Shown: piece by piece, positions 8,037-52,562 of the stretch
Numbering within the stretch: the first letter of the stretch is position 1
Layout of the letters: every line of letters starts with the position of its first letter
Source: Armillaria gallica
Lineage: Eukaryota > Basidiomycota > Agaricomycetes > Agaricales > Physalacriaceae
Assembly: GCA_037576215.1 (NCBI GenBank)
Contig: JBANDB010000013.1
Coordinates: 1,054,001 to 1,118,000 of the forward strand
Direction: 5' to 3'
DNA length: 64,000 bases
Position numbers and translations under genes: made by a program
Notes under the pieces: generated by a model
The model's input: only the letters and a program-made list of their open reading frames with translations
Databases searched by the model: none
Told to the model about the DNA's origin: nothing

Positions 8037-8763
8037 TCGCGCGCGCACCATCAATTTCTGAGGTATCTGCTGTTTGTGGTAATTGACATACTTACGCCGG
8101 AATGGTCATCAGAGTCGTCAACCGAGCTGGGGAGTGGCTCGAGTCTAATGATGACGTGCCTTTCCATTGCCCCTCCGTACAGTGCTGCAACTCTTGAAAA
8201 CAGAACGTCGTCACAATGGTACAGTATCTTAGAGCCTCGGAGGCACCTCTCCGGACACTCCAATAACCTGACACGATGCCCATTTCACTCTGCTTTGCTT
8301 TATGCCCAAGTGCAGATCACTTTGATTTGTGAGATACAACCGGATACGTCGTGGAGCGATGTCTATTGGAGTATGTCCGATTTCTGACTTGCGTTGTACA
8401 TATTGCTGATATTGGATTCCAGGTACGGATTCGTGGCACATGTGAACCATAAGCTCGAGGACAACCGCAAATAATCATGCAGTACATCCTTAGCTCAACA
8501 GCGCGCCGAAGAGATGCGGAAAATGGTGAGGAGCTGTAAGTATGTGACCTGATTGTCCGATAAGGAAATAGAGTACTAAGGAATTTTTGTCAGGCTAGAG
8601 AAACCAAAGCGGCCGCGAAGGTCACCTGCTTCCTAGCTCAACTTCACTTCCATTTCAAGTTCAACATACGGACAATAGTATTCATTGGTATATACGTAAG
8701 AAAATGTTAAAGCCACAAAGTTCTCAAACAAGTCATAATTGATTCTTTCCAATCTCGCCGGTT
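8037..8763. other. Unresolved stretch, possible small spliced gene or remnant
   Basis: No family recognised. On the plus strand two pieces look coding: around 8,360-8,475 a GT-AG junction would read RCLLEYGFVAHVNHKLEDNRK up to a stop, and around 8,500-8,640 another would read EEMRKMARETKAAAK. I could not join them into one frame, so this may be a decayed gene or chance. Confidence 0.2.
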
Positions 8764-9332
8764 TTACACATATACGTCTTCAGGTGCGACGCACAGGACC
8801 TAGACAAGGTTAGCTCTCTAACAATACTTCATAACCCAGACTCACCTCTCCTGGATAGATATTAGCGCAGGTCGAATCCACGTTGGGGTTGTTGGCTAGC
8901 AGAACGTCGTACGTGGTGCCCTCAGCAGCGGCAATAGCTTCGCAGTTATCGCCCGACACGATCACGTAGGTGTTCGTGCAATCTTGGCCAGTAATGCCTA
9001 GGCAAAGGACCTTCGACAACGGAAACTTAGTACGCACTCGCCAAAAATAAGGTGCGAGGAAAGGTACCTCTCCTAAAGCCAAGTTGGTACACCCTGTGTC
9101 GATGTTGGTATTCACCGTGGCGAGCTGATAGCTGCCCTCGACAGTCACTGAGTGAGTGAATCGGGCAACACTATACGAGGGACGCTTACGTGGAAGAGTT
9201 CTGTGTCGCCGATATTTCATCGCAGGTATCACCAAGATGAACAGTGTAGTTGCGAGCACAGTTATTCACTTGGGCTGCACTCAAGTGAAGCCCTGCGGTG
9301 AAGAGGAAAGCGAGACCAGTGAGGATGAACAT
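8764..9332 (-). CDS. Secreted LysM-domain protein (copy A)
   Basis: Small secreted protein with two LysM modules, which bind chitin or related glycans outside the cell. The first residues (MFILTGLAFLFTAGLHLSAA) form a clear signal peptide. LysM1 runs over an intron (NYTVHLGDTCDEISATQ, then YQLATVNTNIDTGCTNLALG). LysM2 contains VSGDNCEAIAAAEGTTYD and NNPNVDSTCANIYPGEV. The last exon is tiny and reads VLCVAPEDVYV, giving about 140 residues. Exon structure and ending are the same as in copy C at 51.4 kb, which confirms the start, introns and stop. LysM proteins of this size can act as effectors that hide chitin, or in cell-wall remodelling; the sequence does not say which. Its promoter is also duplicated at copy C. 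Confidence 0.88.
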
Positions 9333-9850
9333 ATTGGTAACTGTTTAGTATGAACTGGGAGGACCTGGTGAAAGACTGCGACGCGTCTCTCTCTTTATAC
9401 CCCGAAGGTCTGACTCACTATCCAGTGAGAAAAAACACTCGGCGGGATAGCATGGCCGCTTTACGGAATCCGTTGGCGGGGGCGCGTGTGCATCAGATGG
9501 TGCCGGGTGTAATGACGAAAAATATTACGTTCTCCCAAGCGTCTCACGAGGATGACTCGTAGATCAGAGCAACCAATGCTTGTCATCAGCTATGGTGACC
9601 TAGCAGTCGCAGGATCAGTGTCATCGAGTCACACAATCTCATGGTAAGGTACCAGGAGTAAGCCGCCGTTCCCGAATAACGCGAAATTTTACGCGTCAGA
9701 GTTTCTGATCCAAAATTAGAAGAGGACTCGTGATAATTTGGACGATGAACACCCTGACTCCTGCTAGCAACTATCGTTCGGGGTAACCGTCAAACGCGAA
9801 CGCAAGTGCCGGACTTCCACCTGACGATTGCCAGTCGTGACTCGTCAGCA
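9333..9850 (-). promoter_or_regulatory. Conserved promoter block of LysM copy A
   Basis: This upstream region aligns by eye with 50,950-51,427, upstream of LysM copy C. Shared pieces include a TATA box (TATAAAG on the minus strand, 9,393-9,399), a 9-bp palindrome CGGAATCCG (9,464-9,472), a GATGCACACGCG block and a TTTGACGGT block near the far edge. CGG-type palindromes are typical sites for Zn2Cys6 regulators, but no regulator is identified here. Confidence 0.6.
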
Positions 9851-11615: not shown

Positions 11616-11640
11616 GTAGGTTCGAATCCCGCTCTTATCA
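11616..11640 (+). repeat. tRNA 3'-half-like fragment
   Basis: The stretch contains a perfect B-box (GGTTCGAATCC) followed by an acceptor-like tail. I find no matching A-box or 5' acceptor strand upstream, so it is at most a fragment of a tRNA or of a tRNA-derived repeat. It touches the end of the orphan MFS promoter copy. Confidence 0.3.
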
Positions 11641-12508
11641 CTTCCTTTTGCCTTTTGCCTCTGAGTAACTACTATAAGCAGTTATTCAGTTATGCGCCTT
11701 GAGCATTGCAAGCTGTATCTATTATTGAGTTCGCCAGTTAAAAGTAGTTCCCTTTTTAATTGTACCATTATATGAGCAAGATAGAACAATTGGAACTTGT
11801 GTTGAACTTGCGCGGCAAATTAAACAAGTTATCCTCATAGTTGAGTCACTTTGAACTGGCAATCAGCTACCTTTCAAGTTGATCCAGTAAACAACTTGAA
11901 TCGCATCCTCACTGTATCTCGTGGGTCTTTACAGTTGCAGACTGTTGTCTACCTATCAACCACGCATTGACGATGATGGTGCGGTCGTGGACCTGGTATG
12001 TGGACCAGGCCTTGCTGCAAACTACGCTGCCTATTTTGTACGGGGTTTACCCACAAGATATCATCCGACGATGTCGAATTGTTCAGACCATTTGTGGGGA
12101 AGGATTACAGCTCCATATCGATATGCTTGACACTGCCTTGCACGGAGATTATGATCCTTACGTGTCTAAAGTGTGAAGTTTCAGTCTCTGGTTTTGACTT
12201 TGTATCTATTTCATCTTACCGGTCGATTACAGGTATATTGCTCTTGTAGAATGACTTCGCAACACAGTATAGCATAAATCGTTAAGATTTGGTATTCATG
12301 ATGTAGCAACAAAAACAGCTAGAGATACAAACGAAGCAAGTTGACTAGTGATATAGCTCTATATGACTCTATCGTGCGGGCAGGTTCTATCTGGTATATT
12401 CTAAGTGATCATAAGTTCTGGCCATTTGGTAAGCTTTCCTTCCTTTAGGGGCGCGAAGACAGCAGCGAAAGCTGATTAAAGTAGTAGTAGAAGGTGCCGA
12501 GTAGTCTT
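11641..12508. repeat. 3' flank of MFS copy 1, duplicated at 34.4-35.0 kb
   Basis: From about 11,930 to 12,508 the sequence aligns in inverted orientation with 34,433-35,000 downstream of MFS copy 2, for example GCTCTTGTAGAATGACTTCG against its complement, and TTACAGCTCCATATCGA against its complement. Short open frames here are not shared as frames between the copies, so I treat it as non-coding or decayed. 11,641-11,930 shows nothing I can name. Confidence 0.5.
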
Positions 12509-14475
12509 CTATGGGCTCGCCGCATATACAGAGCGCTTCCTCAAGACATGTCCCCATTTCCAGAGTGACTGTTTTAAAATGATCAGCGTACAGAATGACA
12601 GAGACTTGGATAAGACATACCCAAAACACCGGCATAAGCAGGAAAGAGATACCAGCGAGTAGGGCAGAACCCGGTCCTAGGCCGAGGTTGACGAAGAACG
12701 CACGTCCGAAGAGTGGGAAGACGCTGGCGATGGCGGAGCGGAAGAGGTCGTTGCCAGCGAGGACAGACGCAGCGTAAGTAGGGTACGCTGACGTTATATA
12801 TGTCAGGATGCTCTGGAAGGTGAGGTAGATGCCCGGGAGGTAGAGCGCAGCGCCGATGACGGGAACGATCCAGTGGATGCTCTCTTTCGAGGTGAATCCA
12901 AAGATAAGAACGCTCGTCGGGATGAAAATGCTTGCGATCAGACCAATTTCCAGGCGGATCTCAGGCGCAATGTCGATGCCCGCAGCAGCGGCTTTGGCAT
13001 ATCTAGGTGCGATGTGGTATTTCAGGTAGAAAACATATGCGGTGTACTAGAAGGATTGTCAGCCTTAGGAATCTGGAGAAAAAAGATAACACTTACGGTG
13101 ATGGCACCAGAGACAACGAATGCGAGGAAAGGCAGACCACTGAGACCAAGGTTGAAGTGGTAGATGTCGGTGAATACAAGCGGGAAGGCTTCAAACCATA
13201 GGTAAAAGATCGCGTCTGATGAAATATCGTCAATCAAGAATCCTACCAAGAGGTTGTGGAAAATTACTCACAGACAAACCCTAGGTAGACGTTGGCGAAC
13301 ATCAAAACAGGTTCCTTGGCAAGAATGAAGGGGCGAATCAGCGCCTCCTGCATTACTTGTCCAAGAGACTCTCCCTCCTTGTCTTTCTCGCCCTGAGACC
13401 TCAACTCCTGGTTTCCTGTCAGCTTCCTAAGTCGTTGTGCACGCTTCAGTAGGATCGTTGGCTCGTAAGTCTCCGGAAGAAGTAGGAGGAGGAAGATGAG
13501 CGCGAAACCGGCGATCCACAGGAGCTCGTATTGAGGCCACCTCCATCCGTTGGCCTGTGCTGCGAACCCCCCGATGACTGGGCCAGTGATGGGACCCGCG
13601 ACAGCTCCGAGTGCCCAGATTCCGAGCACGTATGCGAATTGGTGCATAGGATAGATGTCCGCCATGGATGCACCTCCCGTAGCCAGCGCAGGACTGCCCA
13701 CAAACCCGGTAACGAAGCGGAATGCTAGAACCGTACTCATGTTTCTGGCGACGGTGACGGGTACCTGGAAGACGACGAATAGGAATAGGGTGACCATATA
13801 CACCGGGTTGCGACCTATCCCCGGAAGTTCTTGTAGAGGTGCTAGAAACATGGGTCCGATACCGTACGCTGATTAAGAGTGTCAGGACTATGTGGGATCG
13901 GAGTGGGAGGCTGAAAACTCACCAAGAACGTACAGAGAGAGTCCGAGAGTGGCCGTGGTCTGAGAGACATCGAAGTCAGTCATCAGGCCGAGAATTGACG
14001 GCGTGTAGATGGCTGAGCCGATATACACGCTGAAGGTCAGGAAACTGATGCTGAACGCGACAAATGCGCGCTTCGCCGGAGACCAATTTCTGGAGATAAT
14101 ATTCAGAAAATATATCTGATTGAGTTGGAAATGAAACAAACCTTGGATTTTCTTGATCATCGTCCCCGTACCACCCTACAATGTACGGATCTGAGTTAAG
14201 AGCAGTGTCAATCTGCTTTTGCTTCTCCGCGTCAAGATCCAGAGTTAACGAGGACTCTCTCGTGAGCTGTACTTCCGTCTTTTCCAAGTCGCCGCATAGT
14301 GTTGTTGCATCAGAGTCCGGGGACACAATTGTCGATGGTCTTTGAGAAATGGAAGGAGGAAATGCGGAGGAACCGCAAATCCGGGCCGCTGGTCAGCATA
14401 GGGAAAGATACGACCATTTGATATGTAGTTGATGGCTTGGCCGATGGTCGAGTCGCGGAAAATGTCTTGGACCAT
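12509..14475 (-). pseudogene. MFS drug/polyamine-type transporter, copy 1, early frameshift
   Basis: DHA1-type major facilitator. The N-terminus (MVQDIFRDSTIGQAINYISN) and the loop LPETYEPTILLKRAQRLRK after helix 6 are typical of fungal TPO/FLU1-like exporters. Helices are clear, including GAVAGPITGPVIGGFAAQ in the motif C position. The ending reads PVFW, an intron, then SLWKWGHVLRKRSVYAASP. Compared with copy 2, one base is missing near 14,347, just after codons for FLLP. This shifts the frame and leads to a stop at about residue 76, although everything downstream is open. It is therefore a recent pseudogene, or functional only if the missing base is an assembly error. Five introns keep phase. 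The block is inverted relative to copy 2 at 32.4 kb. Confidence 0.8.
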
Positions 14476-14985
14476 GGTGGGAGAAAGGACAGCCTGAGGG
14501 GATTTGATGCATTCTCATTATCGTCGGCTGCTTTTATACACGCAAAAAAATCCTGACAATAATTCAACCGGTGCGGAAAACGAATTATTCATCCACCTCG
14601 AGTGGTTGGTGATCAAAGGTCGGCATTCCCCCTTTCAGCCAGTTCACATTCGTCATCATGTTCGGTGCTTTCCGTGTGGGTCAAAATAGACTCCTATTTG
14701 AGTCTGTCGCCAAGAGAACAGCACAGTAAGCTAGAGTAAGCCATTGCCAGGAGACTTTGACTGTCAGATTATCGATGCTATCAGTCAGTATGATTTGGAA
14801 ACTCTGAGCTCGAATATTGGCCCCAGTGCTTTTCGGCGCTAGCAAGCAACTGAGCACTGCGCTAGAGTCCTTGCGGTTACCCGTAAGGTGGAAGTAGGGG
14901 AGGGGGAATCGGTCCTGACTAAACATGCGAGGACGCGTCGCGAATTCGGTACAAAAGTGAGTCAAATTTGCAACAAATTTGTTAC
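14476..14985 (-). promoter_or_regulatory. Upstream region of MFS copy 1
   Basis: This upstream block recurs as an orphan at 11,268-11,613, in part upstream of copy 2 (32,138-32,453), and before the decayed copy at 38,270-38,600. Repeated retention suggests it always travelled with the transporter. I identified no specific operator. Confidence 0.5.
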
Positions 14986-32137: not shown

Positions 32138-35000
32138 GAATATCAAATTTGACCCACTTTTGTTCCGAGCTCGGGTAGCGAAATTTCCCAGCCTCCAGGA
32201 GTCCCCTCCGCAGATCTTTTGGTTGGAGGTCTATTTCTGTCTATGTTCGTTTTTGTCCGACCCACACGGAAAGTGCCGATATGACGAATGTGAACTGGCT
32301 GAAAGGGGGAATGCCGACCTTTGATCACCAACCCGGATGAATAATTCGTCTTCCATGCCGTTTGAATTATTGTCAGGATTTTTTTGCGTGTATAAAAGCA
32401 AGCGACGACAATGAGAAGGCATCAATCCCCCCCAGGTTGTCCTTTCTCTCACCATGGTCCAAGATATCTTCCGCGACTCGACCATTGGCCAAGCCATCAA
32501 CTACATCTCAAACGGCCGTATCTTTCCCTATGCCGACCAGCGGCCCGACTTTGCGGTTCCCCCGCATTTCCTCCTTCCATCTTTTCAAAGACCATCTACA
32601 ATTGTGTCCCCAGACTCCGACGCGACAACACTATGCGGCGACCTAGAAAAGTCTGGAGGCACGGGAGTACAGCTCACGAGAGAGTCCACGTTGACTGGGG
32701 ATCTTGACACGGAGAAGCAAAAACAGATCGATGTGGCTCTTAACTCAGATCCATACATTGTAGGATGGTATGGTGACGATGATCAAGAGAATCCAAGGTT
32801 TGCTTCATTTCTACCTCGATCGGATTTATTTTCTGAATTCTATTTCAAGAAATTGGTCTCCGGCAAAGCGCGCATTTGTCGCGTTCAGCATCAGTTTCCT
32901 GACCTTCAGCGTGTATATTGGCTCGGCCATCTACACGCCGTCGATTCCCGGCCTGATGACTGACTTCAGTGTCTCTCAGACCACGGCCACTCTCGGTCTC
33001 TCTCTGTACGTTCTCGGTAAGCTCCTCTGCCTCCCATTCCGTTTTGCACAGTACTGATACTCTTAATCAGCGTACGGTATCGGACCCATGTTTCTAGCAC
33101 CTCTGCAAGAACTTCCAGGGATAGGTCGTAACCCAGTGTATATGGTCACCCTATTCCTATTCGTCGTCTTCCAAGTTCCAGTCACCGTCGCCAGAAACAT
33201 GAGCACGGTTCTAGCATTCCGCTTCCTCACCGGGTTTGTCGGCAGTCCTGCGCTCGCTACGGGAGGTGCATCCATGGCGGACATCTATCCTATGCACCAG
33301 TTCCCATACGTGTTGGGAATCTGGGCACTCGGAGCTGTTGCTGGCCCCATCACTGGTCCAGTCATCGGAGGGTTCGCAGCACAGGCCAACGGATGGAGGT
33401 GGCCTCAGTACGAGCTCCTCTGGATCGCCGGTTTCGCACTCATCATCCTCCTCCTACTTCTTCCGGAGACTTACGAGCCAACGATCCTACTGAAGCGTGC
33501 ACAGCGACTCAGGAAACTGACAGGAAACCAGGAGTTGAGGTCTCATGGTGAGAAGGACAAGGAGGGCGAGTCTCTTGGAGAGGTAATGCAGGAGGCGCTG
33601 ATCCGTCCCTTCGTTCTTGCCAAGGAGCCTGTTTTGATGTTCGCCAACGTCTACCTAGGATTCGCCTGTGAGTAATTCCCCACATCGTCTTGGTAGGATT
33701 CTTAATTGACGATACTTTATCAGACGCGATCTTTTACCTGTGGTTTGAAGCCTTCCCGCTTGTATTCACCGACATCTACCACTTCAACCTTGGTCTGAGT
33801 GACCTGCCCTTCCTCGCATTCGCTGTTTCTGGTGCTATCACCGTAAGTGTCGTCATTCTTCTCTATATTCCTTAGGTTGACAGTCGTCCTCCAGTACACC
33901 GCATATGTTTTCTACCTGAAATACCACATCGCACCTAGATATGCCAACGCCGCTGCTGCGGGAATTGACATTGCGCCTGAGATGCGCCTCGAGATCGGTC
34001 TGATCGCAAGCATCTTCATCCCGACGAGCGTTCTCATCTTTGGATTCACCTCGAAAGAGAGCATCCACTAGATCGTTCCCGTCGTCGGGGCTGCGCTCTA
34101 CCTCCCGGGCATTTACCTCACCTTCCAGAGTATCCTGACATATATAACGTCAGCGTACCCTACTTACGCCGCGTCTGTCCTCGCTGGCAACGACCTCTTC
34201 CGCTCCGCCATCGCCAGTGTTTTCCCACTCTTCGGGCGGGCGTTCTTTGTCAACCTCGGTCTAGGACCGGGCTCTGCCCTACTCGCTGGTATCTCTTTCC
34301 TGCTCATGCCGGTGTTTTGGGTATGTCACATTCATGTCTCTTTCATTCTGTACGCTGATCATTCTGAAACAGTCACTGTGGAAATGGGGACATGTCTTGA
34401 GGAAGCACTCTGTATATGCGGCGAGCCTATAGAAGACTGCTTGACATCTTCGACTACGACTTTAATCAGCTTTTGCTGCTGCCTTCGCGCGCCTAAAGGA
34501 AAGAAACCTTGGCAAATGACATGAACTTATGACGACTTAGAATATACCAGATAGAACGTGCTTGCACGGTAGAGTCACATAGAGCTATATCACTAGTTAA
34601 CTTGCTTCGTTTGTATTTCTAGCTGTTTTTGTTGCTACATCATGAATACCAAATTATTATGATTTAATATGCTATACTTTATTGCGAAGTCATTCTACAA
34701 GAGCAATAGTATATATGTACTCGACCGGTAAGCTCACCCGCACGAAATAGATACAAAGTCAAAACCTGAGACCGCAACTTCACACTTCAGACGCGTATAA
34801 TCTACGAGCAAGGCAGTGTCAAGCATGTCGATATGGAGCTGTAATCATTCCCCACGAATTTATTTCAACATTCCAACATCATCGGATGACGCCTCGTTTG
34901 TACAACCCACACAAAATAGGCAGCGTAGTTTTCAGGCGGCAAGTCCTTGGTTAACATACCACCTCGATCGCACCATTATTGTGAATGCATGGTTGGGGTA
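32138..35000 (+). repeat. Right arm of inverted MFS duplication
   Basis: This block matches 11,930-14,985 in inverted orientation over upstream flank, gene and downstream flank. The edge near 32,138 is marked by AAATTTGACCCACTTTTGT against the complement of 14,940-14,975. Most of the promoter part is deleted here relative to the left arm. The two arms enclose about 17 kb of mainly conserved genes. Confidence 0.75.
32454..34432 (+). pseudogene. MFS drug/polyamine-type transporter, copy 2, late stop codon
   Basis: Close copy of the gene at 12.5-14.5 kb. The N-terminus is intact here (MVQDIFRDSTIGQAINYISN through TIVSPDSDATTLCGDLEK) and joins NWSPAKRAFVAFSISFLTF across intron 1. Helices, GAVAGPITGPVIGGFAAQ, and the loop LPETYEPTILLKRAQRLRK follow. 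At 34,069-34,071 a TAG replaces the TGG of copy 1, right after the codons for KESIH, which removes roughly the last three helices. Beyond it the frame is open to the family ending near 34,432 (GNDLFRSAIASVFPLFGRAF is preserved). The gene is thus a recent loss, a truncated protein, or a stop read through; truncation most likely inactivates transport. Confidence 0.8.
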
Positions 35001-37236: not shown

Positions 37237-38220
37237 ATGACGACCGTCTGCTACGTCGGAGAATCTCCTGACGACGACAACTGCCCATCATGTGGCCAAG
37301 AATGCACGTACGTGAATAGCCCCTTTCTGTATTCCCTCCATCTATCTCCATCACCAGGCCCGAAAATATGAAAACCGGCATCGGAAAGTATATCCATAGA
37401 TGCGCCGCATCGCTCAAGCACAGCCAAGCTCAACTCTCCACAAACAAAGCTTTCGAACGTTAACCCCCTCGCATTGCCTCTGGCATGGTTGCTCCAAAGC
37501 ATCCACCATCTGGGAAACCTGAGACACTCATCTCATGCACATCGAAAACCACCTCACTTGGCTCGCTTCCGTCTCTACCAGCGGCGAAAGCAGGCATTGC
37601 AACTGGGAGCCCGTTCACACCGACTGGTATCTCTCCGACTGGGCTTTTCACTTTGCCGTAGCTCACGACCTAACAAGGCCGTCATAGTCGACCACTGCGC
37701 TCTCTGCGGCGAATGGGTCGAGGACCAGAAAGGAGACCGCTCAGCTTGGAACGCCCACTGCAAAACCCATTACATGACCATGTTCTCTCCCTTCGAACAT
37801 CCCTTACAAGGACACGTCTCATCACGACCGTGAACCCAAAATCACAAACGATATCACAGAATACAAACCCAATGCGCCCTTTGACAAGAAAGACCGCTCC
37901 TTCACGGCCATATCCAGCAGTCCATCGCTCTCCGCCCCCTTTTCTGTCCCCAACGACTTGCTCATGTATATGCGCATGAAACAGTGAGTATATGCACCAT
38001 ATTTGCAGCTTTCACACTTACCCGGCTCAGATACAGGGACAATATGGTATACACTCACCACGTCTTTCATCAACACCTCCAAAAACTGGTCCACAGTATC
38101 AAAACCGATGTCATGTGCCCTGTCTCCTTTTGCGGAACGCACGCCTTTGCTCTCTTTGATCTCGTAACTCACCTCGTCCTCTTTCACCGTCTTCCGCTCT
38201 TGGGTACAGCCCCATCAAGA
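37237..38220 (+). pseudogene. Decayed zinc-finger half of the recombinase-like gene
   Basis: Homologous to the C-terminal zinc-finger region of the gene at 41.1-44.9 kb. Matching landmarks in order are CYVGESPDDDNCPSCGQEC (against CYPNESPDHANKCPVCGTLC), GIGKYIHRCAAS, HCLWHGCSKAS, VDHCALCGEWVEDQKGDRSA (against IDHCTICGQWFEDDMGDGAS), HYMTMFSPF, and CPVSFCGTHAFALFDLVTHL followed by VLFHRLPLLGT. The frame is broken by an in-frame stop after TIWET and by at least two shifts, and the recombinase half is absent. The 3' end runs into the decayed MFS upstream region at about 38,270. It is a relic of a second copy of the element family. Confidence 0.7.
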
Positions 38221-38608
38221 AAGAAAAGAAGGCTCAGAATTCTCGTTAAGCCTGACTCAAGAATTCCTTCTGACTTACATTTTCCTCGTGTCTCAAGGAC
38301 TCTAGGACTCAGTACTCAGCCCTCAGTTGCTAACCGCGCTAAGTACTGGGACCGACATCTCATGCTACCGGTGGCGAGGAAAGTTCGGAACGCATGCTGG
38401 TATTGGTGTTTCCAGCCTGAGAGTGGTCACGGAAAAGGCCGAACATGACCACCCTTGTTCACTAACCATTATCTTGTTCGATACACTTTCTCTTTTTTAT
38501 TTATTTTAGCAATGGGCTAGAGAGCGCGGAAGAAGCCTCTCTATAAAAGCGGTGAATGATGGGGGACAAGGCGTCAACTACCCCGCCGCTGCCCTTTTCC
38601 TCGTAGGG

Positions 38609-39430
38609 ATGGTCCAGGATATTTTTCGCGACTCGACCATTGGCCAAGCTATCAATTACATATCGAATGGCTGTATCTTCACCTACGCTGACCTGCGACC
38701 CGTCTTTCGAATTCCTTTACATTTTCGACCGAAACGACCTTCGCCCATATCGTCGCCCTACGGCAACATTATTCTTGTTCATCCTCTTCCAGATACCAAA
38801 ACATGAGCACGGTTCTGGCATTCCGCTTCCTCAACCAGGTTCGTTGGCAGCCATGCACTCGCCATCGAAGGCGCGTCCATGGCAGATCTACTGCATCAAT
38901 CATGTCGTGTACATATTTGGAATATGGTCGCTCGGGGGAGTCGTTAGTCCCATCATGACCAGTTTTCGGAGGGTTTGCAGCTCAGGCGAACGGACGGCGA
39001 TGGCCCCAGTAATCTGGATAGTTGGCCCTTCCCTGGTTTTCCTCCCTGAGACTTACGGTCCCACGATTTTCTTAAAACGGTCACGACAGCTGAAGAAGCT
39101 GACGGGAAATGGGCAATTGCGATCCCAGTGAGAGAATCGTTTTCGGCAGCGATGCACTGATCCGATCCTTCATTCTTGCCAAAGAGCTGTCTTGATGTTT
39201 GCGAACCTAGTTTCAATATCATCTCCTCTGTTACCATTGACGATGTTTTATTCAACAAATGCAATATTTTACTTGTGGATTGAGACTTTCCCGCTAGTAT
39301 TTACAGATATCCGCTACTTTCGTCTTGATGTCGGTTTCTTCCTGGTAAATTACCGTTTGTCTCTGGAAGACTATATAGCAGACTCAGAAATTTACTGTAA
39401 GAGGCTGCGAGACTTGACGTACCGCCGTCA
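38609..39430 (+). pseudogene. MFS transporter, copy 3, heavily decayed
   Basis: Starts as in the other copies (MVQDIFRDSTIGQAINYISN) but loses the frame after about 60 residues. Recognisable pieces then appear out of frame or after deletions: MSTVLAFRFL near 38,800, LPETYGPTIFLKRSRQLKKL near 39,030-39,100, and ETFPLVFTDI near 39,280-39,310. Sequence upstream (38,270-38,600) matches the MFS promoter block, including GCGCTAAGTACTGGGACCGA. It is much older than the other two copies. Confidence 0.7.
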
Positions 39431-39499: not shown

Positions 39500-39770
39500 A
39501 CAACAAAAAAATTGTCTGGACTGCATTCAAGCAAAAGCATTGATGAGAGTGGGATACTCAATCACCCGAACAAATGAAATCAAGTTACCAGGAAAAGACG
39601 CAATGTGTACTTCGACATTCGGGCGAAGGCAGAGCTCGTGTGCAACGGAGAGAACAATGTTGGCTTGTGTAAGAGGAGAAGCTTCCAAATCAAGGACAAG
39701 GACAAGGCGCACAAAGCTCGCATGGTATTCGTGAAGCGACGATGCAGGCGTCGGCTGAGCGGTTAATTTG
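39500..39770 (-). pseudogene. Possible glycosyltransferase N-terminal fragment
   Basis: The minus strand reads LTQANIVLSVAHELCLRPNV then EVHIASFPG, which resembles the start of the N-terminal domain of fungal UDP-glucosyltransferases (a nucleotide-sugar family where this is followed by the rest of a Rossmann fold). Nothing else of such an enzyme follows. The assignment rests on this one segment and memory of the family. Confidence 0.25.
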
Positions 39771-39823
39771 TCTTGCCATAACGCGTAGATCACGTGTGCC
39801 GCTTTCTGCGCAACACCACCACC

Positions 39824-40999
39824 ATGTCCATGACCTTGGATGAATTCGACGAATTCACAGAGAAGCTTCGCACTTTTGAGCCTCCTGCCGTACTCTCGCC
39901 TAAAAGCTATGATCGATACACCAGAAATTGGCGCTCTATCCTCTTCTTCGCTGACAAGAACCTCACTGCTGCCAAGACACACAACGAGGAAGCTGCTTCG
40001 TCTACTCTAGTTTGTGTACAGCCATATATATGCTGCCCTTTGGCTGACGTCCTTTCCCCCAGAACAATGTTGGACAGCTGGAAGATCCTGTCAACGAAAT
40101 CATGGCTCACGTCGAGGACGATCTCATTACTCTGGAATTGCTGATGGTCAATCTTTGCCCTGGGAAACGGCCAAAATACAAGAAACGGGAGATGGAGTCT
40201 TTCATTCGGTTGGTAACGGGTTACGCATATGCCAGTGTGGACCAGATCGTGCGTGGACCTGTTCGTCTTTGTTGCGCCTTCTCATCTTGCTCCCAGAAAG
40301 TCATGTTCGCTTCCGACAGTCGTCCTGGAAAGTACACCTGGACCGCCGCTTGCAAGACTCTAGCCGATATCAACAAAAACAAAGATCTCAATGAACGTCT
40401 CCTGGAGCGTGATCGCCATCTCCTCAACCAGGCTGAGGCAGAAGGACTTGCCGATTGGATACGCTACGTGGTCTACATGACCACATCTATACTCTTTGCT
40501 CATGACTACGCTCTTCTGAACGACGACGACAAGGAGGCTTATGTTTTGCAACTCTGTGGTACTATCAGAGGGTCGGCACTTGTCGGAGACGAAGAATCGA
40601 GGACCGCCGTCCGAAACCAATTCTACAACGAGCACAGAAGAACTGTCACAGTGAGAAATCACTACCTGTCCCTCTTTCACTTGGTGCGTTGTTTGGACAA
40701 GCAAGAGACATTCACTAACATCGTTACAGTTTGGCGCTTCTGTTTTGCTTGATCCCACTATCGATATCAGAACCCGCACTGGCATACCCACCCTCAGCGC
40801 CACATTTCCAAAAACTTTTGGTCGTCTCCGAAAAGAGCTCAAGCCGGAAGACATTCGCCTGACCCGCCTCCATAATGATAATTCGGCATTGTTACTAAAC
40901 ATGGTACAGGTCCTAGGTTCTGAGGACGTCTTCAAGCTCGTACGAGACTTTTTAGATACCTTTGATGAAGATGCTGAAGACGAGAGTCATGTACTGTAA
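39824..40999 (+). CDS. Unrecognised 358-residue protein, companion A of the recombinase module
   Basis: Three exons (39,824-40,009; 40,063-40,683; 40,730-40,999) join in phase to 358 residues. It begins MSMTLDEFDEFTEKLRTF. A basic, Cys-containing middle (PVRLCCAFSSCSQKVMF, KYTWTAACKTLADINKN) precedes a helical part. The last intron sits directly before FGASVLLDP. The tail is acidic (DTFDEDAEDESHVL). No signal peptide or membrane segment is seen and I cannot name a family. Companion B at 45.6 kb has almost the same length, the same intron position and the related motif FGAAVFMDR, so the two are probably distant paralogues. The gene is convergent with the recombinase gene at a distance of 138 bp. 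All frames are open, so it looks functional. Confidence 0.7.
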
Positions 41000-41137
41000 T
41001 TGTTCAACAACGCACCATCTCATTGCAACTCACCAGTCAGCAATTTTTCGAGTGATAGTATTACATTGGTGGTGGTTTGTTTGGCTCGCGTTCTGACACG
41101 GAGCGTGCATGGCTAGCAAATACACATTTACAAGTAA

Positions 41138-44100
41138 CTACAACAAAGGTGGTGCAGTGAGAACCCATTCCGCAAATACGTACTCAACGCCGTCTCGCCC
41201 ACGACGATGCTTCTTTGGTTCCTTGATCTTGAATTTCTTTGAAGAGCAATGGTCTGGTAGGTGTGTACGTATGTCAACAAACAGCTCATCACATGATGGG
41301 CAATAATGGTGCCGGCCCCTCTTGGTAGACGTGCCAGCGAGCGAGGTATCCTGATGATTAAAATGAGAACAAGAGTCAAAACCGGTAAAAGACCACGCAC
41401 GGTTGGCAGCTCAAAAGTGAATGGGCCTATTTTTCTCCCATCGTCCGAAAGCTGAAAGAATGCATGTCGCTTCCGGCATAATGAAGCAAGAGCCGACGTG
41501 ATAAAATGCTTCGTGATATCCTTGACAGGCTGGCGACATCCAGTGCAATGATACTTTTTGATGGAGGGAGTAATTCCAGGGCGCTCATGGTTGGTGTCAA
41601 TCTGAGGCTTCTTGGATGGTCCGGCTTGGTCGTCATCATCAGATGTGCTGCGCTTCGAGGGAACTGCTGACCCCCCGTTATGGACGAGCATCAAGTCAAG
41701 GCCACCGTCCTTATCGAGAGTCGGGAGTCGAAGCGTATTAGTCTCCACAGAACGCAAAGTACCAACAACTGGGAGGCGGTGAAAGAGAACCAGATGGGTG
41801 GCAAGCTCGTAAGGTGAAAACTTGTGCATTCCACATGACGGCACAGGGCACAAGGTGGTATCGCTGTCAAGTAGATGTTGTTGGGAAAGATGCCGTTGGA
41901 AAGTTGAGACATCGCGGTATCTACACATTGATGGTAAATTATCATTCAGAGAATAGATAGCAACTTACTGCATCATTCTCCTCGCGATAGGGAGATCTGC
42001 ATTGAAAACACAAAAAGGACAGAAGTACGGGCGGAGAGCGATTCCTCTTTTGATGTGCCCGTGTAGCAATGGGCCACTGACAGAATCACGAGGGTCATAG
42101 CTGATAGCACCTCCGAGATCCACAATACCGGTTGGTTGCAAATCGATGAGCCCATCTTGCCGTTCTTGAAAAGGAGAGAACATATCATCATAGTGCCCCA
42201 TGCAATGGCCCGCCCAACTAGCACCATCACCCATATCATCCTCAAACCACTGCCCACAGATTGTGCAATGATCAATGGTGATAGTGGCATTGACATTGAG
42301 ATAATGCTCAGTCGCAAAGTGGTTGGCCCAATCGGGGACTATCCAACCACCGTCGCCCTCCTCTGCACAAATTTCGCCCTCCTCACGCCACTTGCACATC
42401 TGATTCCCACGGAGCGACAGCTTGGTCAACGATGTGAGATGGGTGTGTATATGAGCAATGAAATCAGGACGTGATTCGTAAACTTTAGTTGAGCAGCCAT
42501 CCCAGGCACAAGTGGTGCGATCAAAGTTATCTGTGGCCCTCTGCTGGGCATCTGCATGCGTACGGGCCATGATGCAATTATGGATGTGTTTACCAATTCC
42601 CTTGGGCATCGTGCTGGAACTGGGATAGCGGGATGAGATACATAAAGATGGACAAAAGTAATGCCTACCTGCATAATGTTCCGCAGACAGGACATTTATT
42701 GGCATGATCGGGCGACTCATTCGGATAGCAGATGTTCAGACGCTGGTGAGGTAAAGAATTGATCGCCTTGATATAAGCAATAATGGAGTCGTTGTCGGTA
42801 TCAAAGGCAGTAGCGGCATCGAAGAAGGTTGCAATAAACTCGTCCATAGATGAAGTCGACTTGGAAAGTATGGGGACACTCGAAGGGGGACGATTTTCTT
42901 TTCCTTTAGCCGAGGTCTTCCCCTTCTTGTCGACAGGATCCTAAAGGAAAGTTGAGGTGAGAATATCAACGACAAGCATCAGACATACGATGCCTTTCAA
43001 CTGGCGTGCTGATGCACCAGCAAAATATTCCTCTCGGGCCTTCTTCACACGAACCCGCTTCTCCCTTGCGACAATGTTCTTGTATTCTTTATCGTGCTCC
43101 TCAAGTTGTGCTTTGAGGGCAGCTATCTGAGATGTGGTCGAAATCTGGGATGCTTCGTCGTCTTCAGCAGATTTAATGTCCTTGGACAGCGTCGCCACCT
43201 GTTTGGCAAGCTGTACATCTTCAGTACTTGAGAGAAAGAAAAGAAGGCAAGGTTTACCTTTTCACGTGTTTCTCTCATTGCTACTAACTCCTCTTCTGCC
43301 AACAGCTCAGCGGTTTCCTCAATAGAGAGCCGTTGCGGCGCATTCGCATCCATACGAGCTGACATGTTTGAGGCGGTCTGTCGAGCATTCAGTGAAACAA
43401 TTGGAGAAAAAATTGGGAACATACACCACCGATCCGTACATTGGATTCATTGATCGGTCGGTCATGTAAAACGGCGCCAAGATCTATATCAATGAGTTTG
43501 GATTTGTAAGAGGTCTATAGACAGGTTGAGGTGACGACGACAACAACAAAGGAAAATGGAGACTAACGTCAAACATGTCCGACTTTTTCGTATGTCCCAT
43601 AAGCGTCCGCAGTTTTTCATCGGATATCTGTCCAGAGAGTCTGTTTGATGCACCGCGTCGTGCACAGTAGCCAGTCACCGCAGCTGATCAAATGAATAAG
43701 AAAATGAAAGATATAAGAGATGGACACTCACAAACAAATCCCTTATTTAAGCTGGTGCGACGGAGATGGCCGTTATATACATCATAGGTCATAGCACGAG
43801 ACGGAGAGGTTTCCCAAACGTTGTCGTTGAGAATCTCACCACGGACAGTGCACAGTGTAGAAACAGAAGGACGCTGCGAGAGAATGTGGTGGTCCGTTGG
43901 AGGTATAGCAGGGTGGAAGATCTCTTCGGCAGTGGTGACGTCCGCAAAGATACCATCCTCCAGTGCCATGGCTGTGGCCATTGAAAACGGGCAGTACGCT
44001 CGGTTACTGTTCGGCTCAGGATAAAGGATGAACTCCTTGTAGGCAGACTGGTCGCTGCCAAGGCCTTTGAGTCGGTGGATAAGGGCGCGGATATAGACAT

Positions 44101-44852
44101 GAGGATGGCGAGGATCATCCGGATTGGGTACAACATGCCATTGATGCTCGGTCCAACGGAGAGCACGGTCCGTGTTTCGGTATTTGCTACCTTCGACAAG
44201 AGCACCGGGACGTTCAGTCATGAGGGACTGAATGCTAATGAGGTAGGCCATTTGGACAGCCATGCGTGTGGTCCTAAACCCGGGGTCTTGAAAGAATGCG
44301 CGAACAAGGATCTCAAAGTCGACGCCTGTGAGGGTGTACTTTGGTCGTGATTCGGTGGAGAGTGGTGCGATATTGTGGAGTTCTTCTGAGTCGATGTATG
44401 CGAGGATTTGTTGGTAGTAATGGGGAGGAAGAGCCTGTAACGCTTCTCGTCTCCAAAGCGACATCAGTGAATGCATCTGGGTCTTGATAGTGCCCTTCAC
44501 TGCATACTCGCTGATACGACCACGGGTGGAAAGGGCCTGATACTGAACAAATCTGAGGAATATAGCTATGAGAGATGTTAGCATATATGCGCCTGCAAGG
44601 TGTTGAAGACGCACGAAGAGCCGGGAGTTTTGAACCTGGGTTAATTTCTCTTGGAACCTCTCCTTCAGGACGGCTATCAGCATACTGTAACCACCAGCGT
44701 TTCAGGCGAATGTGAAAATCTATAGTCGCGCCAGCCAGGATCTTGACGAAAACCCGGTCCAGGGGGTCTGCGATCTTCTCTGCGGTGGCGGGAACAGCTG
44801 AACGCTGCTTCAAAAGTTCAGACCGAGGGATGATCTTGGACTGGAGAGGCAT
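41138..44852 (-). CDS. Captain/DUF3435-like tyrosine recombinase with zinc-finger array
   Basis: Large spliced gene without visible lesions. After MPLQSKIIPRSELLKQRS a helical domain spans an intron (EINPAIFLRFVQYQALSTRG). The catalytic region carries the likely tyrosine-recombinase residues: Arg in MTERPGALVEGSKYRNTD, Lys in ALIHRLKGLG, Arg in YCARRGASNRLSG, His in LRTLMGHTKKSDMF, and Tyr in TSYKSKLIDIDLGAVLHD. A coiled coil follows (LSIEETAELLAEEELVAMRE). A chain of zinc-binding modules is then seen: CPVCGTLC, CAWDGC...HIHTH, CTICGQW...HCMGH, CPFC...HLSQQH, CPVPSC...HLVLFH, CTGC, and CPSCDELFVDIRTHLPDHC. The last intron was phase-checked; the stop follows VLTAPPLL. DUF3435 proteins include the Captains that move Starship elements in ascomycetes. 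That this one mobilises DNA is inference. An in-frame upstream Met at 44,951 is possible. Confidence 0.72.
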
Positions 44853-45595
44853 GGGGGGCGACAATGATAGAGGGAGAAGGCAGGGAGAGGGATAATGGGG
44901 CGACAAGGATGGAAGGGAAGAAAGGGAGGCGGGGGGAAGGATAGAGCGCACGTCGGGCCTTTATACATGCGCTGCAATGACGCGCATGCGCTGTCCCGAC
45001 ACATCCATGACGCAATGGCGCGAGATGAGTGCTCTGGAATGAACCAGTGACCTCCCCTACAGCCAAGAACCGTCTTCCACACTCCCACCACCCACCATCC
45101 CTTCTTCCTCCTCTCCGAAAGCAGATACATCGACTCAGAAAGGACAAGAGCGTCGTGCCCTAGAGTAGTTAGAGAGATTGAGGTCGCCGTTCATGGTCGA
45201 TCATGTGGAGGAGGCAAATTTTTCCGTGAACAAGAATTGCTGCAGCGGGTGCATCGAGAGATTTTGGCAGTAGGGAAGAGAGAGGCAGGAACGTTGGAGA
45301 GCTTGCGCGTGGTAGCGTTGAGGAATGGCGCGTAGTGATAGTTTGCAGAATCCGACGGCGCGTGGTGGGTGTTTGCAGAATCCGACTCTGCAAAGTGACT
45401 GTAACACGACCTGGTCTGTCACGTCACATGTCGCCACCCTTAGTTAATCTCATCGTAGGCCGTTGGCTTGAAATTTATGGCGAGCCAATCACTCAATGCG
45501 ACGACAGCGATGTCAATACGTGGGGGTCACCCACAAAATGCGGGTGAGTCGCTTTCGTGTAATAAATAATTTTTTAATCACATGCCAATTACTAC
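44853..45595. promoter_or_regulatory. Divergent promoter between recombinase and companion B
   Basis: A 743-bp region that must drive both genes. It contains the 30-bp tandem repeat listed separately, and a TGCGCTGCAATGACGCG / CATGCGCTGTCCCG pair near 44,970-45,000. Confidence 0.5.
45327..45386. repeat. Two tandem copies of a 30-bp unit
   Basis: Each unit starts GGCGCGT and ends GTTTGCAGAATCCGAC. The last 16 bases are identical in both copies (45,341-45,356 and 45,371-45,386), while the front half differs at four positions. The location between the recombinase and its divergent partner suggests a protein-binding site. Confidence 0.8.
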
Positions 45596-46797
45596 ATGGA
45601 CTCTCCCCACCAACGCATTCGGGCCAAAATCAAGGACCTCGATGCCGAAATTGCTGCCCTGGCTGTGCTGAATCCCGAATCGACGCCTCGAACGATCAGC
45701 AAGCGCAGAGAGCTGTATGAATACCTTGACGAGAGGGTCGTTGCGCTTGCCGAGACGATTGAGCAGAGCCGTCCTACAGTGGAGGAGCCTGCTGAAGTCG
45801 AGGAACCTGAGAAGGACGCGGAAAAAGAGACGGGGCTGGAGAAGAGGTTTTCAGAGATTGCCGAGGCTTTTGGCGCTGACGCGTTTAGCGCGCATCGGTT
45901 CCGAGCTGTTCTCTTGGAGCATCCTGGTAGTGGGAGCACTGCTGAAATCGAGGATCGCGCGTTTCGACGGATTATCCGAGGCTGGAAGGATGAGGAAGAA
46001 TCTTGGGTGAGTGCATATATGGCCAAAATACGCTTGCTGACCTTGGCAGGCCACAACGCTCCAACCTCTTGTCGATAAACGTGCAGACTGGGACGCGTTC
46101 TGTGACCGCGGAACAACCAATGTGGGTATTGGGGACGTAAGCAAGCAGCTCACTGCAATCAACAAGGTGGGTGTCGTTGTGATTGTCATTCCTGGCTGAC
46201 GGGCTGTTCAGTTACTAGTAGCACAGGAAAATGACGCACGCGGAAAAGCTTGGGTTGCGATGGTTATTCAGATGGTGGAGATGATACGATTCACCAAGAT
46301 TTGGAAGAAGCACGATAATGGAGCCGGGGGTCGGAAATGGAAGACGCAGTATTGGGAAGATGGATGTCGAGAGGAGAACAAGAGGCTGTATCGAAACCGG
46401 GACAACGCGATAGGTTCGCATAAGGAAGTTTTGACAAAGAAAGTCAAAAAGCAGTACCAAGCGTATAGGCGGCAGCAACAGCATATTTTGAAGACGCGGG
46501 AGTCGTTGGTTGCGCTGTATGACCGCGTGAGTGGTGCTTTTTCTGTTTTTCTGTTGCTGATGATCGTAGTTTGGTGCTGCCGTATTCATGGATCGAGTCT
46601 GGTATCCGCGAGACCAACGACGCAGCGGAGGATATGTAAAGCTTCTCCAGAAGGTCTGTAAAGAGCGGAGAGAGGATGCGGCGGAAACGAGGACTGCGAG
46701 CACGACATCGTTCTTGCTGGCGCTAAAGGTGTTGGCAACGGACAAGGTCGTCAGATATGTTACGGCATTCCTGACAGAGTACAAGGTCGTCACGTGA
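45596..46797 (+). CDS. Unrecognised 356-residue protein, companion B of the recombinase module
   Basis: Four exons (45,596-46,006; 46,050-46,166; 46,212-46,526; 46,570-46,797) join in phase to 356 residues. The first third is acidic and helical (MDSPHQRIRAKIKDLDAEIA, then a Glu/Val-rich stretch). The next exon has ATTLQPLVDKRADWDAFCDR. The middle is helical with many basic residues (MVEMIRFTKIWKKHDNGAGG, HKEVLTKKVKKQYQAYRRQQ). The last intron lies directly before FGAAVFMDRVWYPRDQRRSG. The end is VLATDKVVRYVTAFLTEYK. No family is recognised. It is divergent from the recombinase gene, and related in layout to companion A (similar length, FGA motif, same intron site, and a final helix with similar spacing). 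Confidence 0.7.
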
Positions 46798-47424
46798 TTA
46801 CGAAACAATAATTGTATCTGCGCATTCTGTCTTTGCGTCTTGTACTGTGCCCTCGGTCTCGTGTCTTGCATCGAGGCGATTGACCGCTGCCCTCGTCCTC
46901 TTGTCGCCCCCCTGTCCTCTCGCCGCTCACCTCCGGCTCGGGGCTCGGTTCGTGGCTCTCGCCTCTGGCTCGCTCTGGCTCGGTACTCTCGCTTATGCTC
47001 GAGGGTTCGCCAATGCTCACGAGCAGATCTTGCTCGCCTATGCTCGCAGATCTGCTCCGATCTGGTGCCTTAACCGCTCGGCCATACCATTAAACTGTGG
47101 ATATCCCTGGACCTTGATTACGATACTTAAACCTTTCTCGTTAGATTACTGACCGTATTGATCCTGAAGCTAATCTCATGCGATATTGACTCTTTGAACA
47201 TCACTACTAGTGATACGCAACCAAAGTTTACGCTAATTCAAGCGAAGTCCAGGCCCCCTAGAATCCCCTCCTTCGCCCCTGTTGTCCGACGATGAGAATG
47301 TAACTGAAAGAAAACACGTTACTTCAGTGTTCATTTCAAGCTATCCATACGTGAATGTACAAATGGGTCTGCATTTACAGTCCAAAGTCCCGAAGAGACT
47401 CGCTTTCTTGACCAGCCCTGTCCC
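46798..47424. other. Intergenic with CTCG-rich simple repeats and a tRNA-like piece
   Basis: 46,900-47,060 is built of overlapping GCTCG, TATGCTCG and CAGATCT units that can form hairpins, for example GAGCAGATCTTGCTC. On the minus strand 47,064-47,086 reads like the start of a tRNA-Ser or tRNA-Leu (TATGGCCGAGCGGTTAAGGC), but I find no complete tRNA around it. Confidence 0.45.
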
Positions 47425-50617: not shown

Positions 50618-50949
50618 GTATGCGAATCAGTCTCTATCCATCTTCCTCCTTTTCATTGACCGAGGTAGTTTCGGTCTCTTCGACGACCGTATAACGCTAG
50701 AGCTCGGATGGTAAAACTGGTGGAAAATTCCTCTGTAGCTCTGACTCATTAGTCTATATATCAGTGAATACACGACTTGCTCATATCCAGCGTTGTTCTC
50801 CCTTTAGGCTTCCCACCCAAACCGGGACGCTTTGGCGCCTGCTCCCAGAAAGACTTGTCTTGACTCATTTCGCAAAATCTCACCAGACGGGACCAATACC
50901 CTAAAACAGACACAATATGCTCGTGTCAGGGACATCATTGACAATCATC

Positions 50950-51427
50950 AGCCAGCAGCCTGGAGCCTGCATTCGTGTTTGACGGTGACCCCGCACGTTG
51001 CTGGCAGCAGAACCTTCGTTATCCAAACTATCACGAGTCCCCCTCCGTTCTGATCAGAAATTCGGACGCGTAAAATTTTGCGTTTTTCGGGAATGGCGGC
51101 TACTCCTTGTACCTCACCATGAGAATTTTTCAATTTTGTGACTCGGTAGATCACCGGGGCTGGTCTAGTTGCTCTGATGAACCAGTCACCTTCTCGCGAG
51201 GCGCGATTCATACACTGGCAGAACGTTGATTTTTGTCACTGCACTCGGAACCGTCTGATGCACACGCGTCTCCCGCGAACGGATTCCGTAAAGCGGTCAC
51301 ACTATCCCGCTGAGTTTTTTTATACCGCCGAGTAGCGAGTCAGACCTTTGGGATATAAAAGGAGGGATGCGACACCACCTTTCACCAGGTTCTCCCCCGG
51401 TTCCTACTAAACAACTCCTTCGCTGAT
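50950..51427 (+). promoter_or_regulatory. Conserved promoter block of LysM copy C
   Basis: Aligns in inverted orientation with 9,333-9,850. It holds a TATA box (TATAAAA, 51,354-51,360; about 70 bp before the ATG), the palindrome CGGATTCCG (51,280-51,288), GATGCACACGCG just before it, and a GTTTGACGGTGACCCCG segment near the left edge. 50,618-50,949 shows no gene. Confidence 0.6.
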
Positions 51428-51999
51428 ATGTTCGTCCTCTCTGGTCTCGCTCTCGTCATCAGCGCTGGGTTCCACTTTAGCGCTGCCCAAGTGGCTAACT
51501 GTGCTCGCAATTACACCGTTCATCTCGGTGACACCTGCGACGCGATTTCGGCTGCACATAATTCTTCTACGTGAGCATCTCTCAATTATTATTCTGGCCC
51601 ACTGAGCAACATGGCTTGTTGATTTCAGCTATCAGCTCGCTTCGGTGAATACCAAGATCGACGTGGGATGTACCAACTTGGCTTTGGGAGAGGTAAAATT
51701 CCTTCCTTCCTTTTCTTCGCGAGAGCGTACTGAAGTTTCCGTAATCCAAGGTCCTTTGCCTAGGCATTACTGGTCAAGATTGCACAGACACATACGTAGT
51801 TGCTTCGGGGGATAACTGCGTAGCCATTGCCGCCGCAGAGGGTACGACGTACGACATTTTGTTGGCAAACAACCCCAACGTGGATGCGACCTGCGCTAAT
51901 ATCTATCCGGGAGAGGTGAGTATAGGTTATGGGGATATTTATTACCGAGCTAACCCTGTCTAGGTCCTGTGCGTTGCACCTGCAGAGGTGTACGTGTAA
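51428..51999 (+). CDS. Secreted LysM-domain protein (copy C)
   Basis: Signal peptide MFVLSGLALVISAGFHFSAA, LysM1 (NYTVHLGDTCDAISAAHNSS, then YQLASVNTKIDVGCTNLALG) and LysM2 (VASGDNCVAIAAAEGTTYD, NNPNVDATCANIYPGE). The last exon is VLCVAPAEVYV. All introns occupy the same sites as in copy A, and the two proteins differ at only a modest number of positions, so they are recent duplicates, together with about 450 bp of promoter. Copies A and C lie in opposite orientation about 42 kb apart, mirroring the MFS copies. Confidence 0.88.
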
Positions 52000-52562
52000 G
52001 GCCAGCGAGATTTGAAAGAATGAGCTCCGAGCTGTCTCGAGAGTCCGCGTGCCTAGTTGGTTATACGTATACCGAATTTGAATGAATACTGCTATCGTTT
52101 GAGGACTTCATGGCTATATCTCCTACTAAGTCAAAGCGATGTTGTTGGTCTTAAGCTTGAGCAGTATTCCTAAGTTCTAACAGCGTTGTGTTCAGGTGAG
52201 CATCCGTAGAGAAGATTATCAAGAAGGAATAGATATTATACCACACTTCGTGGATTACTCATGTTATGTTCATGGCGAGACTGTTGCCACTACTTTTGTG
52301 CGGCATCCCGAATTCAACCCTCAACGTAGTTTCCGAGATGTCTAGATTTTCCCAAAATTTGTACCAGGTTTCGGGTTTTTCATGGAGTAGACAGTTAGTT
52401 GCTGTTTGTTCTTGTACAGATCTACTTATGTGTGTGCCTATTTCGGCGGGTATTTCATAGTGGGTATTTTGTAGTTAGCCCCCATGTCGCGTTTAACAAA
52501 TGCAGCCTATTTATCACTCTCTTTGTTGGGAAACGGCCTCGTGATCTAACAAAATTGTTGCT

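Follow-up and report, generated by a model that had tools for sequence, protein, structure and literature searches.

Integration into tRNA genes by a tyrosine recombinase is the classic route of prokaryotic genomic islands and phages. The tRNA/tmRNA islands of Islander and archaeal integrases such as SSV1 Int are characterized by a tRNA gene (tDNA) with a displaced fragment, a crossover in the anticodon loop and a tyrosine recombinase (PMC4383910; PMC8371274). Here, we describe a locus of the basidiomycete Armillaria gallica that resembles these systems. A 64,000-nt stretch of contig JBANDB010000013.1 (called the window throughout; C13:1054001-1118000 in the 86-Mb genome, whose 28 contigs are denoted C1, C2 and so on) contains the DUF3435-type tyrosine recombinase gene rec between two genes that we named n1 and n2. 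The window appears to hold a small mobile element, relatives of which sit inside tRNA genes, as bacterial genomic islands do, and we put the probability at roughly 0.6 that rec is the site-specific tyrosine recombinase of a ~7.3-kb n1-rec-n2 element belonging to a family that integrates at tRNA anticodon stem-loops. New here are the partner genes around rec, the junctions with tRNA genes and the presence of an identical right end inside another tRNA gene. The window unit and its relatives share with the Islander and SSV1 systems the tDNA with a displaced fragment (at C8 and C3), the anticodon-loop crossover and, in the window and tentatively at C8, the tyrosine recombinase, and differ from them in the eukaryotic genome, the mostly intron-bearing tRNA genes and the combination of DUF3435 with zinc modules in the recombinase.

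Starship captains, known from Pezizomycotina and also from Tremella, have the same Pfam domain as rec and likewise occur in many solo and decayed copies; rec and the captains probably share their chemistry. Starships measure 15-700 kb, and the targets named for them are other transposable elements and 5S rDNA (PMC12134995). Starships with a captain have been reported in a basidiomycete, Tremella fuciformis (PMC13066641), which makes the label 'little-described', given to this locus in an earlier sequence-only reading, too strong for basidiomycetes in general. That reading had also cast the gene as a captain, which is not supported in the Starship sense: rec is internal, lying between n1 and n2, and not the leading 5′ gene, the unit spans ~7.3 kb (if the left end proposed below holds) and not 15-700 kb with variable cargo, no cargo beyond the two partner genes was seen in the window unit, and the apparent targets are tRNA genes. 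As for the flanking direct repeats of Starships, sometimes joined by terminal inverted repeats (TIRs), tRNA halves are repeated at the related loci on C8 and C3. The C-terminal zinc array is described here as a feature of rec.

Crypton transposons, first found in fungi (PMC12134995; PMC8869645), are, like the window unit, eukaryotic DNA elements encoding a tyrosine recombinase; Crypton and captain recombinases are described as very distantly related (PMC12134995). In fish, Dada DNA transposons have tRNA genes as their insertion sites, in some cases around the anticodon loop (PMC8869645). They share this choice of target with the window family. Dada elements use a DDE-type transposase with target duplication, not a tyrosine recombinase. 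For retrotransposons of Dictyostelium and yeast, tRNA genes are presumed to be safe sites (PMC5006619). It is as retrotransposons that these tRNA-targeting elements differ from the window unit. They land near tRNA genes, not inside them. A table in the A. borealis genome paper gives Ngaro retrotransposons as the sole class with a tyrosine recombinase (PMC7487993). A literature search whose coverage mostly left out subscription papers and preprints returned no account of fungal tyrosine recombinase elements integrating in tRNA genes, and none combining DUF3435 and Agaricomycetes.

The gene model of rec extends from an ATG at 44852 to the end of the stop codon at 41138 and consists of ten exons and nine introns of 47-55 nt, all of them GT-AG, with a frame of 1089 aa that is free of internal stops and frameshifts. 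The product matches Pfam DUF3435 (PF11917) over residues 175-559 at E=2.5e-36, scoring 126 bits against a curated cut-off of 25.8 bits, and it carries the R, K, (H/Y)xxR, H, Y series of tyrosine recombinases in order, as R198 (TERPGAL), K246 (RLKGLG), Y363-x2-R366 (YCARRG), H388 (MGHT) and Y399 (SYKSK). The intactness of the gene, its DUF3435 membership and the order of the catalytic motifs are far beyond chance, and on all three points, down to the motifs named, the sequence-only reading proved right. The coiled coil that it had placed after the core is visible as a weak FlxA match (residues 457-526), in line with the long helices in the predicted model of a relative (P0002). The C-terminal zinc-binding array is likewise present, with eight modules and not the about seven that had been counted; Cx2-5C pairs lie at C623, C666, C747, C829, C870, C971 and C1036, and the eighth module is one CxnC pair identified by eye. 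A sequence/profile search of solved structures with rec gave seven matches at E<=1, none of them a recombinase or integrase.

A search of 5.8 billion proteins, which scored just those candidates with the most words in common and thus gives the relatives as a lower bound, returned at least seven relatives of rec from Desarmillaria, Armillaria and Mycena. The best of these, from Armillaria and Desarmillaria (Agaricales), fit the basidiomycete origin suggested earlier: D. tabescens has two (47% identity over 85% of the query; 42% over 99%), A. borealis one (38% over 91%) and A. ostoyae one (39% over 42%), and three Mycena species follow at 30-31% over 96-99%; three further Mycena proteins came from a profile search. 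Relatives from all three genera have the same architecture as rec. Every catalytic column was invariant in an alignment of rec with six relatives, in which identity to the first sequence went down to 31%. When rec was left out, the catalytic R, K, Y, R and Y were invariant in 9/9 relatives, the H of the third motif was H in six and Q in three, and 20 of the 25 listed Cys/His columns of the zinc array were invariant in 9/9. Since this architecture and its key columns are common to relatives from two families within Agaricales, represented by Desarmillaria and Mycena, the fusion of recombinase and zinc array is, on the strength of these alignments, an old and conserved architecture and not a chance fusion of one genome.

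An indication of mobility came from the right end of the unit. Window positions 46340-47057 and C2:720754-721471 are identical at 718 of 718 positions; up to 47085 the identity is 99.5%, with only four differences, at 47058-47060 and 47066. From 47058 on, both sequences continue as the anticodon stem and D arm of a tRNA, and their acceptor stems differ. With an identical copy of its right end inside another tRNA gene, the mobile unit suspected in the sequence-only reading has more evidence behind it than that reading could draw on. The unchanged 718 bp point to recent movement, and empty sites in other strains should therefore be easily found. When 24 bases of the C2 tRNA were used as a pattern, allowing up to three mismatches, there was one match in the window (47061-47084) and none in 100 shuffles; a pattern cut from the window site itself was circular and was replaced by this one. 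The window gave no match with ARAGORN without introns or with Rfam, as expected from searches for whole tRNAs where only a half would be present. For the window unit only this right half was seen, and no flanking direct repeat was found for the window itself.

The subterminal repeats CTCGCYWATGCTCG at the right end (Table 1) number five in the C8 relative, when up to two mismatches are allowed. Across the 86 Mb, the right-end repeat CTCGCYWATGCTCGAG occurs five times without a mismatch (once at the window end, once at C2 and three times at C8) and seven times with one mismatch (one more at C8 and six scattered), compared with a single match when it is read backwards as a control. Within the window by itself, a shorter right-end motif with two mismatches barely reaches significance (four occurrences against 1.03 expected; 3/100 shuffles reach four), and the case for the motif therefore rests on the genome-wide exact count.

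The left end probably lies near 39777, as homology to the unit at C3:1696k begins at 39781; a D-arm-like string at this end was dropped as evidence. Immediately to the left is a gene fragment that is 95-97% identical to sequence flanking the tRNA insertion on C2 and lacks ~208 bp present in the C2 copy. Judging from its motifs, it is presumably glycosyltransferase-like. Mixed flanks of this kind would be expected if two inserted units had recombined with each other. Slightly further left, window positions 39209-39330 match C18:661025-661148 (87%), ~1.1 kb from a listed tRNA (C18:659857-659962).

At C2:721k, the matching tRNA 3′ half lies across the 0.72-kb piece, twice in tandem. ARAGORN joins the halves into one tRNA over an 835-bp gap and labels it 'Asp(atc)'; with the flanks joined, it chooses the second of the two tandem 3′ halves. 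By eye, this split tRNA is Leu-type, with its D arm, long variable arm and discriminator A. The 9.6-kb C8 locus consists of a tRNA-Pro gene (C8:1674321-1674416, called by ARAGORN, with no Rfam match at E<=5) followed by n1-like, tyrosine-recombinase-like (YR-like) and n2 genes, and a second tRNA-Pro 3′ half is found beyond n2, at C8:1684019 (39 bp, 92%). Near the left end of this unit is a 77-bp direct repeat of 98.7% identity (C8x 231-307 and 1476-1552; C8:1674530-1675851). At C3:1696k, a tRNA-Tyr 5′ half directly adjoins an n1 relic on its left (22 bp at 95% by BLAST, extending by eye to the anticodon GTA plus one base), and an intact, Rfam-confirmed tRNA-Tyr(GTA) with an intron is situated to its right. 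At C3:3818k, which was chosen since a tRNA was already listed there (63 of 4691 candidates scored, 54 tRNAs listed), the features next to an n2 relative are an intact tRNA-Leu(CAA), which Rfam recovers as well, and then an additional tRNA 3′ half recognized by eye. Additional 3′ halves of this kind occur at C2:721.5-721.6k and C3:3817.8k, in each case some tens of bases downstream of a tRNA or tRNA half, and could have been left behind by repeated rounds of integration and loss.

In total, tRNA genes or halves stand at a boundary in five of the seven n-type loci with flanks read (ten loci are known), and neither was found at a boundary at C4 or C2:3203k; a C4 tRNA-Lys with a 127-bp intron called by ARAGORN is doubtful, as it has no Rfam match. 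With introns allowed, ARAGORN called two tRNAs, one of them doubtful, in 214 kb of genomic DNA, compared with none in 786 kb of Markov-random DNA matched in composition. A tDNA and its displaced fragment bracket the units at C8 and C3:1696k, and the crossover, placed by eye and from the repeats, falls in the anticodon region at C2, C3:1696k, C8 and in the window. A tyrosine recombinase is on board in the window and, tentatively, at C8; none was found in the copies at C3:1696k and C2:721k, both of which are truncated. Since the displaced half, the intact or complementary half, the breakpoints at the anticodon and the involvement of several tRNAs match prokaryotic islands, integration into tRNA genes can by analogy be proposed for the element family.

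We propose that the recombinase core would cut and join DNA via Y399, with the coiled coil holding the synapse and the zinc array reading the element ends, perhaps through the repeated motif at the right end. The target of the family would be the anticodon stem-loop of a tRNA gene in either orientation. After integration, one side of the element would keep the displaced tRNA half, and on the other side an intact tRNA would be regenerated when the element carries the matching half. That rec is the enzyme of integration, that the coiled coil, zinc array, n1 and n2 play parts in it and that the element is active at present are all plausible on this model.

Neither n1 nor n2 matched a Pfam family above the cut-off, and the predicted structure of n2 has a mean predicted local distance difference test (pLDDT) score of 43. 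A blastp E of 0.046, obtained against four sequences, does no more than suggest that n1 and n2 are homologous. In this genome, where protein searches score the best candidates only, n1 recurs at C8, C3:1696k, C18:766k, C4 and C5:2029k and n2 at C8, C2:721k, C1:3722k and C3:3818k; the protein collection holds three relatives of n2, from A. gallica (93%), A. borealis (86%) and D. tabescens (58%). A dispersed repeat of ~115 bp (45320-45434) lies between rec and n2 and has seven further places on C17, C1 and C4 (75-93%). A 25-bp piece of it is present at the left end of the C8 unit, and three loci on C17 belong to a separate, longer repeat family.

The n1-rec-n2 reading has three weak points. The left end is inferred; in A. 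borealis and D. tabescens, the relatives of n2 and those of the recombinase-zinc array gene sit on separate contigs; and at C8, where n1 and n2 also occur together, the 5.5 kb between them contain a different YR-like gene. The latter is tentatively a recombinase, judging from a DUF3435 match at E 0.039 (below the Pfam cut-off) and a catalytic R-H-Y stretch at E 0.087 on the same strand and in the right order, and its region is similar to C2 (best E 7e-12). The n1/n2 unit could accordingly be a tRNA-targeting element moved by a C8-type recombinase, with the zinc-array recombinase as a passenger or as a separate nested element, which would also suit the result that ARAGORN found no tRNA in the 20-30 kb around two loci of a second recombinase subfamily, C1b and C2 (Rfam covered pieces L031 and L033-L035). 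We regard this as rather unlikely. The searches that were run revealed no other recombinase-like match between 39777 and 47057, and a recombinase-zinc array gene also stands tail-to-tail with an n-type gene at C4 and at both C2:319x-320xk copies (E just 0.0044 in one). This linkage is old, since the C4 copy has diverged by 15-19%.

The same genome holds at least six relatives of rec (C1:5242k, C1:1879k, C2:3191-3196k, C2:3202-3203k, C4:4242k and window 37.2-38.3 kb), while C18:823k and C20:1218k carry DUF3435 genes less closely related to it, in agreement with the related multi-copy loci anticipated for a mobile system. The closest DNA relative of rec is a decayed 3′ part on C4, which is 81-85% alike and continues into the tail of the neighbouring gene; with C1, rec shares short stretches only (65-69%). 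The second subfamily, A, is nearer than rec to a Desarmillaria protein (P0001). Its C1 and C2 copies are 87-94% alike at the DNA level, the two C2 copies 78-81%, and the window fragment at 37 kb is 74-81% alike to C2; the C1 copies are truncated. An intact tRNA-Leu(TAG) with an intron (C1:5239676-5239804; L029:7677-7805) was noticed 1.7 kb from a truncated subfamily-A gene. C18:817845-833878 and C20:1208000-1225158 (L038-L041) form a ~16-kb inverted duplication of 93-96% identity that is still running on; it contains a distant DUF3435 fragment and later insertions and could be a larger element. ARAGORN found no tRNA in either 20-kb piece of it, with a single boundary covered.

Such truncated and decayed copies are also what would be expected if rec were a domesticated or relic solo gene and the tRNA junctions had arisen by ectopic recombination at tRNA loci, which are repeats able to mispair, or by segmental duplication; solo DUF3435 genes outnumber captains in elements (PMC12134995). 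This explanation is distinctly improbable given the breakpoints at the anticodon region of three different tRNA genes (Leu-type, Pro and Tyr, partly placed by eye), the end of the 718-bp identity where the tRNA begins and the exact end motifs at element ends only. A true captain of a giant element extending past the window, as the DUF3435 domain, the Starships of one basidiomycete (PMC13066641) and inverted repeats elsewhere in the window might suggest, is very improbable with a right end fixed by an independent copy 2.2 kb from the 5′ end of rec, a recombinase that is not the terminal 5′ gene and partner genes that recur in small loci.

The giant-element reading was rejected after an all-against-all comparison of the 20-30 kb around six own-genome DUF3435 loci and the window. 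The inverted pair 11957-14682 / 32259-34995 (88.6% identical, with a third fragment at 38609-39206) was discarded as a sign of it, being a repeated gene, presumably transporter-like from its motifs, that lies wholly to the left of rec. Strings resembling tRNA 3′ halves are found near this pair at 11619 (+) and 32032 (-). A second inverted pair, 8742-9833 / 50939-52021 (75%, ~41 kb apart), has one arm on each side of the element.

Table 1 Features of the window, with the evidence for each
Feature	Position	Strand	Evidence
Decayed C-terminal fragment, second recombinase subfamily (A)	37246..38259	+	Genome protein/DNA comparison
Glycosyltransferase-like gene fragment (presumed), left of element	39567..39750	-	95-97% to flank of C2 tRNA insertion
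Putative element n1-rec-n2, ~7.3 kb	39777..47057	.	Right end: identical copy; left end: start of C3 homology
n1, 345 aa, 3 exons, tail-to-tail with rec	39824..40999	+	Gene model
rec, DUF3435 tyrosine recombinase with coiled coil and eight zinc modules	41138..44852	-	Gene model, Pfam, conservation
C-terminal zinc array of rec, from C623 on, eight Cys/His modules	41138..42694	-	Sequence and conservation
Catalytic segment R198 to Y399 (R, K, YxxR, H, Y)	43506..44212	-	Residue coordinates, invariance in relatives
n2, 356 aa, 4 exons, head-to-head with rec	45596..46797	+	Gene model
Right subterminal repeats CTCGCYWATGCTCG, three copies	46988..47046	+	Motif search
5′ half of a tRNA of Leu/Ser type (from the D arm to the anticodon stem), abutting the right end of the element	47058..47088	-	C2 tRNA comparison

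Beyond this locus, we see an even chance that Physalacriaceae harbor a family of compact elements in their nuclear genomes whose tyrosine recombinase, either of the DUF3435-zinc-array kind or an interchangeable one, has its attachment site attB in the anticodon stem-loop of many tRNA genes, in both orientations, often with the tRNA regenerated from an element-borne half. Such elements would possibly reshape tRNA introns and shuffle chromosome arms, and would represent a eukaryotic counterpart of bacterial tRNA islands. If true, the n1-rec-n2 element would link Starship-type recombinases to the prokaryotic mechanism of tRNA integration via a fungal DUF3435 enzyme, would explain how an element can insert without killing its host and would provide a ready test of what DUF3435 recombinases recognise.

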